Part shown: positions 53,202 through 60,451 of the stretch, piece by piece
Numbering within the stretch: the first letter of the stretch is position 1
Layout of the letters: each line of letters starts with the position of its first letter
From: Leptothermofonsia sichuanensis E412
GTDB lineage: Bacteria; Cyanobacteriota; Cyanobacteriia; Leptolyngbyales; Leptolyngbyaceae
Length of the DNA: 64,000 bases
Assembly: GCF_019891175.1 (NCBI RefSeq)
Contig: NZ_CP072600.1
Location: 2,914,001-2,978,000 of the forward strand
Direction of reading: 5' to 3'
The notes under the pieces: model-generated
Told to the model about the DNA's origin: nothing
The model's database searches: none
What the model saw: the letters and a program-made list of their open reading frames with translations, nothing else
Made by a program: the position numbers and the translations under genes

Positions 53202-53310
53202 CCCATTTGGCAGATTATTAGTGCATACCTTCCCTACAGCCAGGAGATAGATACGGTTGACGACAGAAATCAGCCGATGAAATCTGTCCAAACCAGTACC
53301 TTTCTCCCCT

Positions 53311-53997
53311 ATGTTAATTAACCGAATTGCGCCTCCTTCTTGCTCCAGCTTTCTTCAAGCAGATTTAGATGAAGCTGCAAAAGCACTTTCTACCATCACA
53401 CGCACGATCGCCAATCTGGATCCAGCAACCCGTGAGCACTGCCAGCGATTGGCCATTCAGGGGAAAGCCTTTGGAGAATTTCTCAGCCTCTCTGAACTGG
53501 ACATTCATACCCTGATGTGGGGCGGGTACTTACACGACATTGGGAAAGTTGGAATTCCCATCGATGTTCTGCTCAAGCCCGGACTACTCACAGACGCCGA
53601 GTGGGAGGTGATCAAGCAACATGTTTTGATTGGTGAGCATATTTGCTACTCACTGTTTGCCATGGAGCGAGTAATTCCCCTTATCCGACATCACCACGAA
53701 CATTGGGACGGCTCTGGCTATCCTGACCGACTCGCAGGAGAGCAAATCCCTTTTCTAGCCCGGATCATCCAGATTCTTGATGTGTATGACGCGCTTACCC
53801 ATGAGCGCTCCTACAAACCCACTTATACCCATGCACGCGCCTTAGAAATCATGGCTGAAGAAACGGCAAAGGGCTGGTATCAGAAGGAACTTGTACAACA
53901 GTTCTTTGCTTTTATCTCTAGAGAACGGGGAGACTGGGGGCTGGAATCCCTGTTTCTGGATGAACCACTAGCAAATGGTTGTCTAGTTTCTGAATAG
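53311..53997 (+). CDS. Stand-alone HD-GYP domain phosphodiesterase-like protein
   Basis: 228 residues, nearly all HD-GYP domain. The HD pair is in GGYLHDIGKVGIP (H75, D76), followed by HVLIGEHICYSL and the GYP motif HHHEHWDGSGYPDR near 127-140, then LDVYDALTHERSYK. HD-GYP enzymes hydrolyse cyclic di-GMP or related dinucleotides. Typical versions carry a receiver domain or sensor; this one has only about 35 extra N-terminal residues. It lies 109 bases after ubiX and about 155 bases before the sigma-like gene, and could be either an independent gene or the first member of the CHAT-CHASE2 neighbourhood. Confidence 0.9.
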   Translation: MLINRIAPPSCSSFLQADLDEAAKALSTITRTIANLDPATREHCQRLAIQGKAFGEFLSLSELDIHTLMWGGYLHDIGKVGIPIDVLLKPGLLTDAEWEVIKQHVLIGEHICYSLFAMERVIPLIRHHHEHWDGSGYPDRLAGEQIPFLARIIQILDVYDALTHERSYKPTYTHARALEIMAEETAKGWYQKELVQQFFAFISRERGDWGLESLFLDEPLANGCLVSE

Positions 53998-54008
53998 AAC
54001 GCCGATAC

Positions 54009-54074
54009 AGAAATCGGATTTCTTCTCTCGGATACCCAGGTTTCGTTGAATTTCTCACCAGAAATCCGATTTCT
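54009..54074. repeat. Pair of mirrored palindromes AGAAATCGGATTTCT / AGAAATCCGATTTCT
   Basis: Each 15-mer is nearly self-complementary, and the two are exact complements of one another, 36 bases apart, just after the HD-GYP stop. They could fold as one long hairpin or two small ones. The type is common in filamentous cyanobacterial genomes and may act as a terminator here. Confidence 0.7.
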
Positions 54075-54152
54075 TGGGATTCTGAACCGATGCTCTAGAT
54101 CCCAGAAAATCTTTCTGAGACAATGACACCCGACTCCTTCTGAGGACTTTTC

Positions 54153-55490
54153 ATGGGTAATGCGTCGCGATACTGGACACTGGCCAAACTTAACAGTGCT
54201 GGGCAACTAAAGAGGGAAGAAATTGCCTCTGCCAAAGCTTTCTTTAAACAGCAGTTTCCAGACTTTAATGACCGGGATGTACCAGATTCATTGGTACAGA
54301 GCCGGCTGATGCAACTCATGTCCCAGAATCAGGATCTGGTGCAACTATCGCAACTCTGTCTCCGTTGTTTTATTTCTGATCAGGTGCAGCAAGTGTGTAT
54401 CCAGCTTGAAGCCCGATTTGGCGAGCGTCACGGCTTTACTCGTAAAGACCTGTTTCCCTTTGTTCTGGATGATGATGGGAAACGTGGCTATCAATCCTTT
54501 GCAATCGCAGTGTTGAGCAACTTTGACCCTGCACGCAGCAGCCTTGCAACCTGGACCAGCCGACTGGTGAGGCATCATCGAGAACTGAATGCATTTTTGC
54601 TGGAATGTGGGGTTTATCTTCTCAGTGATTGGGCAATTTTGAACGATACGACCCCCAGAAAGCTTGAGCAGGTATTCACTGAGGTATATCCTCGCACATC
54701 TTTAGAAGTGTGCCAGGCGATCGCCCTGCTGAATAGTTACCATGAAATTTATCGCCAGAAACGGCTCAGGCAACGCTTGGAAGGAACCACCACTGGACAC
54801 TGCCCGCCTCCAACGCCAGACCAACTGGAAGCCATCAGTCATCGGCTGCGGCAAAAAGTGGACCTTACCCTTGCCCCCGAAACTGTGTTAACCAGACTTC
54901 AGTCAATGGCAGAACGATTGCGGCAGCACCGGATTGCCGCCCGTCGAGGCACACCTGAAACCGAAGCGTTAACCACCCCCGATCTGATGGTCACTCCTGA
55001 CGTGACCGACGAACACGACCCTGATCAGTTTTTACAGCTTTACCGGCAGCAGTTCGCAGACTGTTTGCAACGAGCACTGCAACGGGTGGTGAGCGATCGC
55101 CTGCAAACCATCAAACCCCCTAAAAACAAACACTTTGTCACCGCTCTGCAACTATTTCACTGCCAGAAAATGTCCATGACCGAGATTGCTACTCGCATTG
55201 GTCTGAAAGCTCAGTTTGAAGTGAGTCGTCTACTGAAGCTCAAAGAATTTCGTGCAGATGTGCGTCACTGGATGCTGAATTATCTGCGTGATGGTGTAGC
55301 AGCTCTGGCAAAGGACTTTATCGACCCCAACCAACTTCAAACCCGCGATGCTCAGATTGAAGCCGCTCTGAACCAACAAATTGAAGAAGTCATTGGTTCG
55401 GATGAAAAGCAAGCCAATACCCCAAAAAATTTCCTGGTAGACAGTCTGTTTGCTCGCAAGCTTTGTGAGTATCTGGATGGGATAGGGTGA
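54153..55490 (+). CDS. Sigma-70-like conserved cyanobacterial protein
   Basis: 445 residues of no named family that I can assign. Two segments recall sigma-70 factors. FDPARSSLATWTSRLVRHHR (about 126-145) resembles the region 2 pattern FDP-RG---TW. ALQLFHCQKMSMTEIATRIG (about 330-350), followed by FEVSRLLKLKEFR, looks like a region-4 helix-turn-helix. Between them is a charged helical linker with DWAILNDTTPRKLEQVF. It may bind RNA polymerase or DNA, but the core-binding residues cannot be checked by eye. A GAGG sits 12 bases before the ATG. It is followed on the same strand by DUF1822, CHAT-CHASE2 and DUF928 genes, an order I believe recurs in cyanobacteria. Confidence 0.7.
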   Translation: MGNASRYWTLAKLNSAGQLKREEIASAKAFFKQQFPDFNDRDVPDSLVQSRLMQLMSQNQDLVQLSQLCLRCFISDQVQQVCIQLEARFGERHGFTRKDLFPFVLDDDGKRGYQSFAIAVLSNFDPARSSLATWTSRLVRHHRELNAFLLECGVYLLSDWAILNDTTPRKLEQVFTEVYPRTSLEVCQAIALLNSYHEIYRQKRLRQRLEGTTTGHCPPPTPDQLEAISHRLRQKVDLTLAPETVLTRLQSMAERLRQHRIAARRGTPETEALTTPDLMVTPDVTDEHDPDQFLQLYRQQFADCLQRALQRVVSDRLQTIKPPKNKHFVTALQLFHCQKMSMTEIATRIGLKAQFEVSRLLKLKEFRADVRHWMLNYLRDGVAALAKDFIDPNQLQTRDAQIEAALNQQIEEVIGSDEKQANTPKNFLVDSLFARKLCEYLDGIG

Positions 55491-55736
55491 AGAATCGAAG
55501 GCAGAAAACAGAAAATAGAAAACAGAAAATAGAAAACAGGAAATTGAGACGAGACATGAATTCCGAACTCTGAACTCTAAACTTTCAACATCCCGTTATC
55601 CTTTGTTTCCTATGCCCTGTTCCCTGTCCCCTGCTATATAACTTTCAACGTTCAGATCTGCTCTTCTCTCTGGACTCCTGACTAACAACTAACAACTAAT
55701 AACTAACAACTAACAACTCCCTTCCCCTTCCCTCCT
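55491..55736. repeat. Repeat-filled spacer before the DUF1822 gene
   Basis: AGAAAACAGAAAATAGAAAA units (55500-55540) lead into a block of about 110 bases (55551-55660; GACATGAATTCCGAACTCTG to CTTTCAACGTTCAGATCT). That block is repeated with about 80-85 percent identity at 57043-57160, before the CHAT-CHASE2 gene. TAACAAC/TAATAAC heptamers follow (55680-55720). Confidence 0.8.
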
Positions 55737-56930
55737 ATGAGTGAATCCATCATGTATTCCTTTGATCTCCTTGATGAAATAGAGCGCGTCTCAGACGCCG
55801 CGATCGCTCTCAGCCCGGATCAGATGCGGCAGGCTGCCGAACTGAGCCGGAGACTGCCGGATGCGGAACAATGGCAAACGTACCTGAATGCACTGGCACT
55901 GATCAGTTTTGAAGAATGGCTACGCGGGCGGGCAAGGGAAGTTGTCCTCAATCGGGCAGACTGTTCCCTGCTGCATCCTTCCTATGCCGGGACAATTCCG
56001 GCAGTATGCAACCTGAATGCCAATCAGTTTCGGCTCTGTCTGATAGCCACCGGAAATCTGACGGACACGGTTTCAGTACCTAGAGCCGCGATCGAACTGC
56101 CAGAGTTTGTGGCTCACTTCTATGTGGCAGTAGAAATTCGTGAAGAACAGCAGCAGGGAATAGTCCAGGGTTTTCTTCGCCATGACCAGTTGCTTGCCTG
56201 TCAGCAGTCCCATCCGCTCTCCCCTGACGCTGATCAGACTTACTCACTACCCTATGACTGGTTTGAACAGGACCCTGATCGGCTGCTGCTACATTTGCGA
56301 TGCCTGGAACCCGATGCCATTCCTCTGCCTGAAATCACCCGCGATCGCGCCACTACCCTATCGAATCTATTCCAATTTCTGACCCAGCGGGCGGTCAACA
56401 CAGGACTCTGGCTGCGTGAACAGTGGGATGAGGTTGCCCAGGAAGTGGCCTGGGTGCTGCTTCCGCCTACCGCCACTTCCATGATGCGATCGCCAGTTCA
56501 AAGTTCATTCCAGCGATCGCCAGGAGAGGAATTTGCAGCGATCGTGCAGCAGTTAGAACGCAGTGGACTGCGGTTACCTGCTCAGGCACGAGGAGCTTAC
56601 CGGGACTGGATTATGGCAAACATCCCCCTGCGGCTCTATGCCATTGTGGGAGAAGTCCCCCCAACAGATCAGCGACCAGAATGGTCATTACTGCTTGTGC
56701 TGGGAGCACAGCCCAGAACCAGTCTGCCCCAGGGCATCAGCCTCCAGGTCAGCGACCCGACGGGCATCCTGGTTGAGCGCACCCTGGACTCCCAAACCAC
56801 GGCTGACTATCTGTTTGTCCAGGTTTCCGGTACCTGGGACGAAAAATTTCTCGCCAGCATCACCCTTCCCGATGGGGAACGATTGACCTTGCCACCGTTT
56901 GGGTTTCAACCAGTGAGGGGTGGGGAGTAG
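55737..56930 (+). CDS. DUF1822 family protein
   Basis: 397 residues (or 392 from the second ATG). FDLLDEIERVSDAAIALSPD at the start and FEEWLRGRAREVVLNRADC near residue 60 match the cyanobacterial DUF1822 family. The first half contains short beta-rich segments (VPRAAIELPEFVAHFYVAVE) and the C-terminal part another beta domain (RPEWSLLLVLGAQPRTSLPQ, LPDGERLTLPPFGFQPV). No catalytic motif or membrane segment is seen, so it is probably cytoplasmic. It lies between the sigma-like and CHAT-CHASE2 genes on the same strand and is a likely partner of them. Its function is unknown. Confidence 0.8.
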   Translation: MSESIMYSFDLLDEIERVSDAAIALSPDQMRQAAELSRRLPDAEQWQTYLNALALISFEEWLRGRAREVVLNRADCSLLHPSYAGTIPAVCNLNANQFRLCLIATGNLTDTVSVPRAAIELPEFVAHFYVAVEIREEQQQGIVQGFLRHDQLLACQQSHPLSPDADQTYSLPYDWFEQDPDRLLLHLRCLEPDAIPLPEITRDRATTLSNLFQFLTQRAVNTGLWLREQWDEVAQEVAWVLLPPTATSMMRSPVQSSFQRSPGEEFAAIVQQLERSGLRLPAQARGAYRDWIMANIPLRLYAIVGEVPPTDQRPEWSLLLVLGAQPRTSLPQGISLQVSDPTGILVERTLDSQTTADYLFVQVSGTWDEKFLASITLPDGERLTLPPFGFQPVRGGE

Positions 56931-57213
56931 GAGGAGTGAGGGCTGAGGAGTCAGAAGTGTTCGCCTTTGGCGCGTTCCCGCAGGATGGAGTTGTTGGTTG
57001 TTGATTGTTAGAAAGAAGGCAGAGGCCAGAAAACAAAAAATTGGGACATGAACTCCGAACCCTGAACTCCAAATTTTCAAGATCCCGTCATCCTTTCTCT
57101 CCTACAGCCCGTCGCCTGTTCCCTGTCCTCTGCTATGTAACTTTCAACTTTACAGATCCTTACTCCTCACTCCTCACCCCTTAACAACCTCCCCCTCCTT
57201 CCCCCCCTACCCC
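56931..57213. repeat. Repeat-filled spacer before the CHAT-CHASE2 gene
   Basis: GTGTTCGCCTTTGGCG (56958) echoes GTGTTCGCCTTTGTCG near 20352. A block of about 115 bases (57043-57160) is a second copy of the one at 55551-55660. C/T-rich sequence (57162-57210) reaches the ATG, with no Shine-Dalgarno sequence. Confidence 0.8.
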
Positions 57214-59625
57214 ATGCTTACCTCTCACTACCGGCTAAAAGCTCGACGGATTGAGCAGATCTGTGTCTTCGAGTTGTCCTGGGGCAGTGGTCAGGAACTG
57301 GCAACCAGCTTAACCTACCCAGAAACACTGACCAGCCTTTACCAGGGGTGGCAACAGGCTTACTTTAACTTTTACAAGTCAGCGTTGCGGGCGCGGGTAG
57401 AGCGGAGTGGAGAACTGGTTTCGCCTGCGATAGATTGGCGAACGAAGCTGGTGCAGGCTGAGGCAAGCTTGCTGTCAGAGTTTTATTTCTGGCTCAGCAG
57501 TGCTGAGTTACTGGAAATTCGGGCTGTCATTGCCAAAGCGGCTTCTCGTAACGTCGGAGATGGGGCAACGCCAGTGGATGTATTTTTGACCTGTGAGCCG
57601 CTGGAACTGGCGCGATTTCCCTGGGAAGCCTGGGAGATTGGGACAGAATTTGCCGCCACCCGAACCATCCGGATTGTTCGTACACCCGCTAACATTCGGG
57701 CAGAAACCCGGCACCGATCGCGGCGAGGACGGGTAAGAATTCTGGCGATTGTGGGCGATGACACGGGGCTGGACTTTCAAGCAGACCAGGACGCTGTGCG
57801 ATCGCTGGCACCTGTCGCAGAGGTTCAGTTTGTAGGCTGGCAGCCAGGAAAGGATGAGCAGGCGTTAAAAATTGAAATCTGTCGAGCGATCGCCGATGAA
57901 CGAGGTTGGGATCTGCTGTTCTTTGCAGGACACAGCAATGAAACCTACCTGACTGGCGGCGAACTGGTGATTGCCCCCAATCAGTCTATCCTGATGCAGG
58001 AAATCGCCCCCCAACTGGCGATCGCAAAGGAGCGCGGGTTACAATTTGCTATCTTTAACTCCTGCAATGGACTCAGTATTGCCCACACGTTGATTGATCT
58101 GGGATTGAGCCAGGTAGCCGTGATGCGTGAACCGATTCATAACCGGGTGGCACAGGAGTTTCTGGTTCGCTTTCTGCAAAACCTGGCGGAATTCAAGGAT
58201 GTGCATGATGCCATGCTGGCGGCCTGCCAGTCATTGAAACTGGAACGCAACCTGACCTATCCCTCGGCCCATTTAATTCCGTCTCTGTTTCGTCATCCAG
58301 ACTCGGTTCTGTTTCAGATTAAGCCTGCTAGCTGGCGGCACCAGCTCAAACAATGGTTGCCCCTGCGACGGGAAGCGATCGCCCTTTCCAGCCTGCTTTT
58401 GCTGAGTTTTCTACCAATCCAGCCCATCTTATTAGAGCCGCGTCTCTGGCTACAGGCCCTTTACCGGCATGGGACTCGCCAGATCCCCCAAACCGCACCG
58501 CCAGTAGTTCTGGTGCAGATAGATGAAGACTCGATTCGACGCGGCAACATTCAGGCAGATAAGGTGCACCCGATCGATCGCAAATACCTGGCAGAGGTGC
58601 TCGATCAAATCTTAAACGTTAACCCCAAAGTGGTGGGTATTGATTACCTGCTCGACCGCCCAATGGATGGAGATGCGCGGCTTGCAGAGGTAGTTCAACG
58701 GGCGATACAGCAAAACACCTGGCTGGTGTTTGCCTCGGTGGAAGATGGCAGGGGCGGAGACATTGGCGCAACCCCTCAAATTGCTCGCCCTGAATCCATC
58801 CTGCAAGGCTACATTGACTATTTCCCAGGCTATATCGAACTCATTCCTGCTGATGGAAATTGTGTCAATTCCTGTCCCTTTTCATACCTGCTGGCATTGA
58901 CTTCTGTGATGACGCAGTCATTTCCGAATGGAGATAAGTTCCCAATGCCTGGACAAGGTCAGAGTGACTTTCGCACTCAAGTACTAGCCTATGCCCGCCA
59001 GAAAAAAGAGCAGCATCCCAGTGTAAAGTTTCTGGTGAACCGGCAGCATCTGCCTCCTATCAGTAGTTTCAATCACTGGTTGCAACCCATCATTGATTAT
59101 TCGGTGCCGCCCGATCGCGTTTACCAGTCCATCCCTGCCTGGAAACTCCTGGAACCCGATTCCACTGAACCCGCTCCATTGCTCCCGCCTGGCATTCCCC
59201 AACCGCTCATCCTTCTGGTGCCCGGTGGCTACGATCAGGCTGGAACAGTTCTACCAGGCGAGGATAACTATGCCAACCCACCGCTGGCAGTTACCTACTG
59301 GCAGGAAGACCACCAGAGATTTACAGGTGCCCATGCCCATGCCTACACCATTCACAATCTGTTAAATCAACGCCTGGTGGTCCCGATCCCCAATTTGTGG
59401 ATGATTGGGGTAGCAGCCGTACTGGGAAAGGGACTATCACTGCTGCTGCGCCCAAGGGAGCACCGATGGCGTTGGTGGTTCATCCTGGTGGCTGCCTCTG
59501 GGGTCTATGGCATGTTAAGTTTGCAACTTTATATTTCAGTGGCAGTCTTGTTACCCTGGCTCTTACCTTCAGCCGCATTTTGGATTTATGCGTTACCTGC
59601 TCTAAGGAGGAAACCTCATGGCTAA
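57214..59625 (+). CDS. CHAT protease - CHASE2 sensor membrane protein
   Basis: 803 residues. An N-terminal region (1-165; WDVFLTCEPLELARFPWEAW-like block near 120-140) leads into a CHAT domain. The catalytic histidine is H240 in LLFFAGHSNETYL and the cysteine is C284 in FAIFNSCNGLSIAH, the pair shared by caspase-like CHAT peptidases. A membrane helix (about 388-406) is followed by a CHASE2 domain (about 410-690; VVLVQIDEDSIRRGNI, NPKVVGIDYLLDRP), a predicted periplasmic sensor. Three helices close the chain (about 727-795). The topology puts sensor outside and protease inside. A DUF928 gene overlaps its stop by 8 bases. It may cleave a target on a periplasmic signal; substrate and signal are unknown. 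Confidence 0.9.
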   Translation: MLTSHYRLKARRIEQICVFELSWGSGQELATSLTYPETLTSLYQGWQQAYFNFYKSALRARVERSGELVSPAIDWRTKLVQAEASLLSEFYFWLSSAELLEIRAVIAKAASRNVGDGATPVDVFLTCEPLELARFPWEAWEIGTEFAATRTIRIVRTPANIRAETRHRSRRGRVRILAIVGDDTGLDFQADQDAVRSLAPVAEVQFVGWQPGKDEQALKIEICRAIADERGWDLLFFAGHSNETYLTGGELVIAPNQSILMQEIAPQLAIAKERGLQFAIFNSCNGLSIAHTLIDLGLSQVAVMREPIHNRVAQEFLVRFLQNLAEFKDVHDAMLAACQSLKLERNLTYPSAHLIPSLFRHPDSVLFQIKPASWRHQLKQWLPLRREAIALSSLLLLSFLPIQPILLEPRLWLQALYRHGTRQIPQTAPPVVLVQIDEDSIRRGNIQADKVHPIDRKYLAEVLDQILNVNPKVVGIDYLLDRPMDGDARLAEVVQRAIQQNTWLVFASVEDGRGGDIGATPQIARPESILQGYIDYFPGYIELIPADGNCVNSCPFSYLLALTSVMTQSFPNGDKFPMPGQGQSDFRTQVLAYARQKKEQHPSVKFLVNRQHLPPISSFNHWLQPIIDYSVPPDRVYQSIPAWKLLEPDSTEPAPLLPPGIPQPLILLVPGGYDQAGTVLPGEDNYANPPLAVTYWQEDHQRFTGAHAHAYTIHNLLNQRLVVPIPNLWMIGVAAVLGKGLSLLLRPREHRWRWWFILVAASGVYGMLSLQLYISVAVLLPWLLPSAAFWIYALPALRRKPHG
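59603..59609 (+). promoter_or_regulatory. Strong ribosome-binding site within the CHAT-CHASE2 gene
   Basis: AAGGAGG lies eight bases before the ATG of the DUF928 gene and inside the last codons of CHAT-CHASE2. It is the strongest Shine-Dalgarno sequence noticed in this region and fixes the DUF928 start. Stop and start share ATGGCTAA. Confidence 0.85.
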
Positions 59626-60451
59626 GTTGAATCTGTATACTGGCTCAAAAACTGACCACTCAGTGCCCATGTATAACCGCCTGAACCCTGTTCTGAAAAG
59701 CTTTGTGCTAGCAACTGCCGGCATTGTCTTTGCCGCTGGCGTCGCTGGCAGTGGACTGCTTCTGGAGACTTTTCAGCCGATTTCGAGGGCACAGGCTCTG
59801 CCAGCCCGGGCCAGTTCCTGGGGGGAAATGTGGGGAGTGTTCAGTCGAAGAAAGGTTAGAGGCGGTTCACGGGGAGAAATTTGCCCCCTGGCACCGGTTA
59901 ATTGGATTACCCCTACGGCAAACCAGGAACCTGTAGAAATCTGGAGCGATCGCCCATTGTTCCTCTGGGCTGGAACGGTCGGGCGAATTCAGGTCACCAG
60001 CCAGACCGACGGAGATATGTGGGACCGGGTCATTGGTGACAACCGACAGAGCATCGTTTATGCGGGACAACCACTCCAGCCCGATCAAACCTATTCCTGG
60101 AAGATATTTAGCGAAGCCTCTCCCAACGCAAGACCCAAGTACTCCTTTCGGTTTCGCATCGTAGAGCCACCAGTTCGCGATCACATTACCACTGAGCTGG
60201 CTGCCCTGGAAACCCAACTCAAATCTAAAGGGGCAACCCCCGAAGAAATTGCCCTCCAGCGAGCAAACTATTTTGTTAGCTTTGCCAATAAGGACTTGAC
60301 CGCTGATGCTCTGCGAGAAATGTATTCTGTCAAAAATCCATCGCCTGAGTTAAGGGCCACCATCGAGAAAGTAGCCCCAGAGTTGTGCAACTATGAAAAG
60401 GCTTGTCTGGGATCCCGGATTTTGGGGCTGAATATCGGATTTTGGGGCTGA
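59618..60451 (+). CDS. DUF928 family exported protein
   Basis: 277 residues. A hydrophobic N-terminal segment (VLATAGIVFAAGVAGSGLLL, about 30-50) acts as a signal or anchor. The DUF928 body begins CPLAPVNWITPTANQEPVEI, with SDRPLFLWAGTVGRIQV, then YSWKIFSEASPNARPKYSFR and a helical C-terminal part ending near ELCNYEKACL. It should lie in the periplasm, where CHASE2 also faces, so it is a candidate ligand, partner or substrate. Its start overlaps the CHAT-CHASE2 stop, so the two are translationally coupled. The last dozen residues (SRILGLNIGFWG) are encoded by a 20-base tandem duplication and may not be ancestral. Confidence 0.85.
   Translation: MAKLNLYTGSKTDHSVPMYNRLNPVLKSFVLATAGIVFAAGVAGSGLLLETFQPISRAQALPARASSWGEMWGVFSRRKVRGGSRGEICPLAPVNWITPTANQEPVEIWSDRPLFLWAGTVGRIQVTSQTDGDMWDRVIGDNRQSIVYAGQPLQPDQTYSWKIFSEASPNARPKYSFRFRIVEPPVRDHITTELAALETQLKSKGATPEEIALQRANYFVSFANKDLTADALREMYSVKNPSPELRATIEKVAPELCNYEKACLGSRILGLNIGFWG

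Follow-up and report, generated by a model that had tools for sequence, protein, structure and literature searches.

What does a cyanobacterium do with a membrane-bound protease of caspase type whose gene stands behind that of a putative sigma factor? A run of five genes in Leptothermofonsia sichuanensis E412 raises this question. The window, the whole 64,000-nucleotide stretch of DNA that we analysed, belongs to a complete genome of 6.43 Mb and carries, all on its plus strand, genes for an HD-GYP protein (53311..53997), a sigma-like protein of 445 aa (54153..55490), a DUF1822 protein of 397 aa (55737..56930), a CHAT-CHASE2 membrane protein of 803 aa (57214..59625) and a DUF928-like exported protein of 277 aa (59618..60451). 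A sequence-only reading had joined the five into a candidate sense-and-cleave system, and the five open reading frames are indeed present as it described. The HD-GYP protein (HD_5 Pfam match, 9.4e-32) is nevertheless rejected as a cassette member, since a close homologue adjoins only 1 of about 140 related loci; the conserved unit consists of the other four genes. The HD-GYP gene is parted from the sigma gene by what appears to be a REPIN- or MITE-like (REP-like) palindrome pair, AGAAATCGGATTTCT / AGAAATCCGATTTCT, 51 nt apart at window positions 54009-54074. This palindrome pattern occurs in 97 copies in the Leptothermofonsia genome, many of them paired at equal spacing.

The order of the four core genes is widely conserved. 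The genome of the window itself contains three complete four-gene cassettes (the window, L031 and L032) and a fourth cassette, L033, in which a C14 caspase replaces CHAT-CHASE2. In a phylum-wide sample of 40 loci with 41 DUF1822 genes, picked by DUF1822 alone, a sigma gene lies immediately upstream on the same strand of 36 of the 41 DUF1822 genes and CHAT comes next after DUF1822 in 27 of 41, with DUF928 following 14 of 19 CHAT-CHASE2 genes. Of the 8 CHATs that lack CHASE2, only 1 has DUF928 behind it. The constant core is the pair of sigma and DUF1822 genes, in which translational coupling by -4 overlaps is frequent. A second sample, of 80 more loci picked by CHAT-CHASE2 from named cyanobacteria (Nostoc, Calothrix, Stenomitos, Okeania, Leptolyngbya and others), revealed a mostly identical order, some loci having an extra gene or keeping sigma and DUF1822 apart. 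Both samples bear out the expectation, attached to the sequence-only reading as a check, that the four core genes co-occur across cyanobacteria. Of 60 genera sampled from the phylum, 44 have DUF1822, in part just as its N-domain.

The proteins encoded behind the sigma-DUF1822 pair vary. CHAT is joined to Peripla_BP_6 in L105, to TPR in L112 and to nSTAND1 in L114, and elsewhere a C14 caspase (L033, L097) or a trypsin-like protease (L107) stands beside the pair instead. A TPR-CHAT gene lies between DUF1822 and CHAT-CHASE2 in L164, L169, L174, L177 and L208, from Nostocales and others. An apparent sigma-DUF1822 fusion, L175, was set aside because it comes from a low-coverage MAG with a frameshift nearby. 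The 6.4-Mb genome of the window contains 27 CHAT and 19 CHASE2 matches.

Alone, the window sigma-like protein gave no significant Pfam match. Among its homologues, 12 of 45 match the sigma70-ECF model (best 1.5e-10), and its relative L119 matches Sigma70_r4 at 4.5e-8. The AF2 model (pLDDT 87) is composed of a sigma1.2/2-like region at about residues 14-153, a disordered linker at 268-287 and a sigma4-like HTH at about 320-375. A Foldseek search of this model against the PDB was weak on its own. A second structural aligner returned sigma factors for all of its top 50 PDB entries at Z of about 6-7, which for a helical protein is under the caution level of the aligner itself, and residues 14-153 superpose on sigma1.2-2 at about 4 Å. 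Both sigma2 and sigma4 domains were thus found, sigma4 by sequence in relatives and with Z moderate. We accept the sigma identity because sequence, fold list and context agree, Z being only about 7. The cautious label of the earlier reading can accordingly be made more precise, as family and fold evidence favour sigma-70; the model supports a sigma-70 fold, which is new here, and we describe the protein as a divergent sigma-70 family factor. None of the sigma, DUF1822 and CHAT-CHASE2 proteins showed a direct sequence link to any solved structure.

The DUF1822 protein (Pfam, 5.2e-43) was modelled at pLDDT 88 as an alpha/beta N-domain (residues 25-195), a linker (about 241-262) and an Ig-like domain (284-395). 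Kaur et al. 2021 (eLife, PMC8195603) call DUF1822 a TPR protein and assign it neither an anti-sigma nor a substrate role; an alpha/beta N-domain with an Ig-like sandwich and no Pfam TPR match lead us to reject the TPR label, and here this non-TPR protein carries a candidate cut site. In fold, the N-domain is similar to PD-(D/E)XK-type proteins, including D212 (2w8m; Z 8.8, 4.0 Å over 127 residues) and a Holliday junction resolvase (2eo0; Z 6.5). It is unlikely that DUF1822 is an active nuclease, as the matching strands are without the conserved acidic/Lys motif. Profile and fold searches detected no homology to known anti-sigma domains and returned no Csx30 chain among their matches.

That we read DUF1822 as an anti-sigma factor is due chiefly to the gene layout in family f23, 24 loci (L225-L248) from another class of the same phylum, a non-photosynthetic lineage with genomes of 1.6-2.3 Mb that probably represents gut relatives of cyanobacteria. 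There, the DUF1822 N-domain starts proteins of about 800-1300 aa with exactly one TM helix in 23 of 24 cases, the ORF of the 24th being split. A sigma gene (about 190 aa) lies downstream in 24 of 24, with a gap of 12-106 nt in 23; at the split locus it sits after the second half. All three of the f23 sigma genes tested gave a sigma4 match above the cut-off. Of four f23 proteins scanned for TonB_C, three have it, namely L225, L226 and, in its second half, the split L228; it was not found in L227. This predicted arrangement is that of classical anti-sigma factors with a transmembrane anchor. With DUF1822 encoded beside its sigma factor both in the phylum-wide sample (36/41) and in f23 (24/24), it appears to be a dedicated sigma partner. 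We infer the anti-sigma role from layout alone, relying on f23 homologues whose C-terminal parts differ. In the limited library of papers that we searched, DUF1822 is nowhere tied to anti-sigma function.

The CHAT-CHASE2 protein consists of an N-terminal module, a CHAT domain at about residues 124-341 (Pfam, 1.4e-8), a TM segment at 389-407, a CHASE2 domain at 404-736 (Pfam, 2.5e-15) and C-terminal TM segments placed by hydropathy. It was correctly recognised from the letters that a protease and an extracytoplasmic sensor are joined here in one membrane protein, and that its His240/Cys284 pair is intact. Both residues of the dyad (codons 57931..57933 and 58063..58065) are invariant in the 131 CHATs compared. 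Glu306 (58129..58131), which is E in 124 of 127 homologues, might be the acidic residue that binds a basic P1 side chain.

If the protease cuts after a basic residue, DUF1822 offers a conspicuous candidate. Position 251 of DUF1822 is R in 107 of 115 homologues and K in 2, and only three residues of the protein are better conserved than Arg251 (n=115). When homologues are clustered at 35% identity, 20 of 22 clusters have R, 1 has K and the last, L105, shows M-R-S beside the aligned column. Position 252 is Ser in 70%, and the top frequency at positions around Arg251 averages only about 0.2. The residue falls in the least confident internal block of the model (low pLDDT), and the flanking linkers vary from 9 to 63 and from 21 to 97 residues to the nearest conserved anchors. 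The arginine is kept whether a CHAT or a C14 caspase (L033, L097) stands beside it, and is replaced by lysine beside a trypsin-like protease (L107). The CHAT, C14 caspase and trypsin-like classes all have members that cut after basic residues. Orthocaspases are reported to cleave after positively charged residues (PMC6426788). Based on this conservation, we propose that Arg251-Ser252 (56487..56492) is the likely CHAT cut site, a prediction that is new here.

Among 19 DUF1822 proteins without CHAT within two genes, 18 have R and 1 has K at position 251; a few of these 19 have C14, trypsin-like or TPR-CHAT genes as neighbours, and several are without any adjacent protease. For the latter, a protease acting in trans or a structural role of the arginine must be assumed. 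Four DUF1822 proteins (L195, L208, L211 and L094) have Met or Leu at 251 with CHAT-CHASE2 adjoining or one gene off. In their partner CHATs E306 is unchanged and F320 is Leu in all four, but this one change in four cases is too little to be taken as compensation for the missing R251.

On the sensor side, the CHAT-CHASE2 and DUF928 genes share an 8-nt stop/start overlap, ATGGCTAA (59618..59625), preceded by an AAGGAGG ribosome-binding site; both elements had been noted earlier and are real in the sequence. The -8 gap recurs in other loci, and because a start codon with an 8-nt overlap at this place is found in 43 of 79 relatives, it is not a matter of chance and the coupling of DUF928 to CHAT-CHASE2 stands. 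The window DUF928-like protein has no Pfam PF06051 match alone; an iterated profile started from it reaches bona fide DUF928, and the reverse search works too. Its N terminus is signal-like, with a hydrophobic segment at residues 29-43 followed by AQA. Pfam finds 11 DUF928 genes in this genome, and the one in the window makes 12. Ten of the 12 are neighbours of a CHASE2 gene, whether or not CHAT is present as well, which indicates that DUF928 tracks CHASE2 and not CHAT. Two-partner-secretion exoproteins (PF05860) adjoin sigma-DUF1822 or CHASE2-DUF928 at L111, L125, L036 and L182. Exoproteins with the TPS secretion domain recur in the neighbourhood, as do TPR-CHAT proteins, and we speculate from this hint that the signal might concern secretion or the outer envelope.

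A cassette of this type was already predicted computationally in 2021. Kaur et al. (PMC8195603) found EACC2-caspase genes in the neighbourhood of genes for ECF sigma factors and DUF1822 proteins, and CHASE2 is one of the variable domains that they list; they suggested that the caspases are activated as autopeptidases and that the peptidase drives a transcriptional output. Their set combines a constant N-terminal module, the EACC2 alpha+beta domain, and a caspase-fold domain with a variable C-terminal domain and ECF sigma and DUF1822 neighbours, an arrangement that the window appears to share. We found a conserved N-terminal region (about residues 1-120), putatively the counterpart of EACC2, in the aligned CHAT relatives, a caspase-fold domain with catalytic His and Cys, a variable C-terminal domain (CHASE2, or Peripla_BP_6 in L105, TPR in L112 and nSTAND1 in L114) and neighbouring ECF-type sigma and DUF1822 genes. 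The window cassette is a member of this system on every testable feature. DUF928, which the main text of Kaur et al. does not mention, is a cassette member here. New in the present analysis are this membership, the rejection of the TPR label, the proposed anti-sigma role, the predicted Arg site and a promoter-like motif; in the paper library that we searched, DUF1822 appears in two papers, and these points are raised in neither.

Taken together, we lean, somewhat beyond even chances, towards the cassette being an envelope-to-transcription switch in which CHASE2/DUF928 senses, CHAT cuts DUF1822 after R251 and the sigma factor is freed. DUF1822 would bind the sigma factor via its N-domain and hold it idle. 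CHASE2, aided by periplasmic DUF928, would detect an envelope signal, and the cytoplasmic CHAT domain would become active and cut DUF1822 in the interdomain linker after Arg251. The cut DUF1822 would then release the sigma factor, or be degraded off it, and the freed sigma factor would transcribe its own operon and other targets.

Such transcription of its own operon would agree with a motif found in relatives. A bipartite sequence, [CT]TGCATRAGT-N9/10-CAGAA(A/C)TA (core form TTGCATAAGT-N9/10-CAGAA), lies upstream of 28 of the 69 long-sigma genes compared, which come from many genera; it is present in 1 of 345 shuffles and, on the opposite strand, in 4 of 69, with a motif model trained on part of the same 69-gene set. 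This placement fits autoregulation. The motif is absent from the 300 bases upstream of the window sigma gene, and a resembling site at 53221 was dismissed as not significant, its score ranking 74th in the window. The exact pattern has 4 matches in 291 genomes, one of them at a sigma operon, where about 2 are expected by chance (an estimate), and it detected no wider regulon in these genomes. An exact copy in the genome of the window (G000:C1:1585356-1585382) lies 335 nt before the gene of a 176-aa exported protein and is compatible with chance.

Cleavage of DUF1822 has to be weighed against other roles for the same parts. It is possible, though in our view unlikely, that CHAT processes itself and so frees its own cytoplasmic part, R251 of DUF1822 being a structural or binding hot spot. 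Autopeptidase activation is what Kaur et al. 2021 propose for EACC2-caspases with sigma/DUF1822 neighbours (PMC8195603), and conservation of R251 even without an adjacent protease gene would suit a structural residue; a low-pLDDT linker of variable length, however, is a poor place for one, and so is a position where Lys replaces Arg beside a trypsin-like protease. That the sigma factor rather than DUF1822 is the substrate appears distinctly improbable. CHAT would then cut the sigma linker at 268-287, destroying the sigma factor or releasing an active piece, and DUF1822 would serve as an adaptor. The linker is disordered in the model between the sigma2-like and sigma4-like parts, and its R-G-G stretch is partly conserved (R in 39 of 64 ungapped sequences at 264, G in 56 of 64 at 266), but this site is far less conserved than R251 and is seen in the long sigma form only, and short forms of about 220 aa occupy the same cassette. 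Splitting sigma2 from sigma4, moreover, normally kills a sigma factor, which we count against this alternative. The idea of a proteolytic transcription switch is supported as first put forward, and of the two proteins originally offered as its target or regulator, DUF1822 is favoured as the target.

A conflict system of defence or cell death, with CHAT as a lethal protease whose expression alone is regulated by sigma and DUF1822, we regard as very unlikely. Immunity and cell death are processes in which proteases of the caspase fold are implicated, and EACC2 is placed among conflict systems by Kaur et al. Against this, no PADLOC defence model matches the four cassette proteins, one genome holds several copies with a conserved envelope-sensor module, and the DUF1822-sigma pair occurs without an adjacent protease in the distant lineage f23. 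The cell-death response entertained in the sequence-only reading thus receives no backing, with neither a PADLOC match nor an effector found.

In logic, the nearest proven analogue of the proposed switch is Csx29-Csx30-CASP-sigma, in which Csx29, a TPR-CHAT protein, cleaves Csx30, an inhibitor of CASP-sigma, in type III-E systems (PMC10028731). Both combine a CHAT protease with an ECF-like sigma factor and an inhibitor of sigma that the protease cleaves, the inhibitor and its cleavage being predicted for the window cassette. The trigger of CASP is RNA via Cas7-11, whereas that of the window cassette is proposed to be a membrane CHASE2/DUF928 sensor; among the genes flanking the cassette we found no Cas gene, neither Cas7-11, the CASP effector, nor any other. 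Regulated proteolysis of RseA/RsiW, as cited in PMC10028731, likewise runs from an envelope signal through a protease and anti-sigma cleavage to sigma release. In contrast to RseA/RsiW, the protease itself carries the sensor here, and the proposed anti-sigma factor is soluble, with its cleavage placed in the cytoplasm. Cyanobacteria also have HetF, a caspase-like protease reported to cleave PatU3 (PMC12288457); its resemblance to the proposed switch is that the protein it cuts is a negative regulator. The window CHAT-CHASE2 scores only 10 bits against the HetF equivalog cut-off of 1200 and differs from HetF in architecture and neighbours.

For the DUF1822 family as a whole, we see an evenly balanced case for a large, unrecognised anti-sigma family, soluble in cyanobacteria, with a near-universal Arg site cut by exchangeable sensor-linked proteases. 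At the same even chance, the family would be common to cyanobacteria and a non-photosynthetic sister class, and CHAT, C14 caspase and trypsin-like proteases, fused to or paired with their own sensors, would activate sigma factors. If the proposed switch is true, its design would be directly testable at a single mutable bond, R251-S252. It would provide a function for DUF1822, and a physiological substrate for many bacterial caspase-like proteases, which are usually discussed as cell-death enzymes. The CHAT/inhibitor/sigma logic of type III-E CRISPR would then be one case of a signalling scheme that is general in bacteria.
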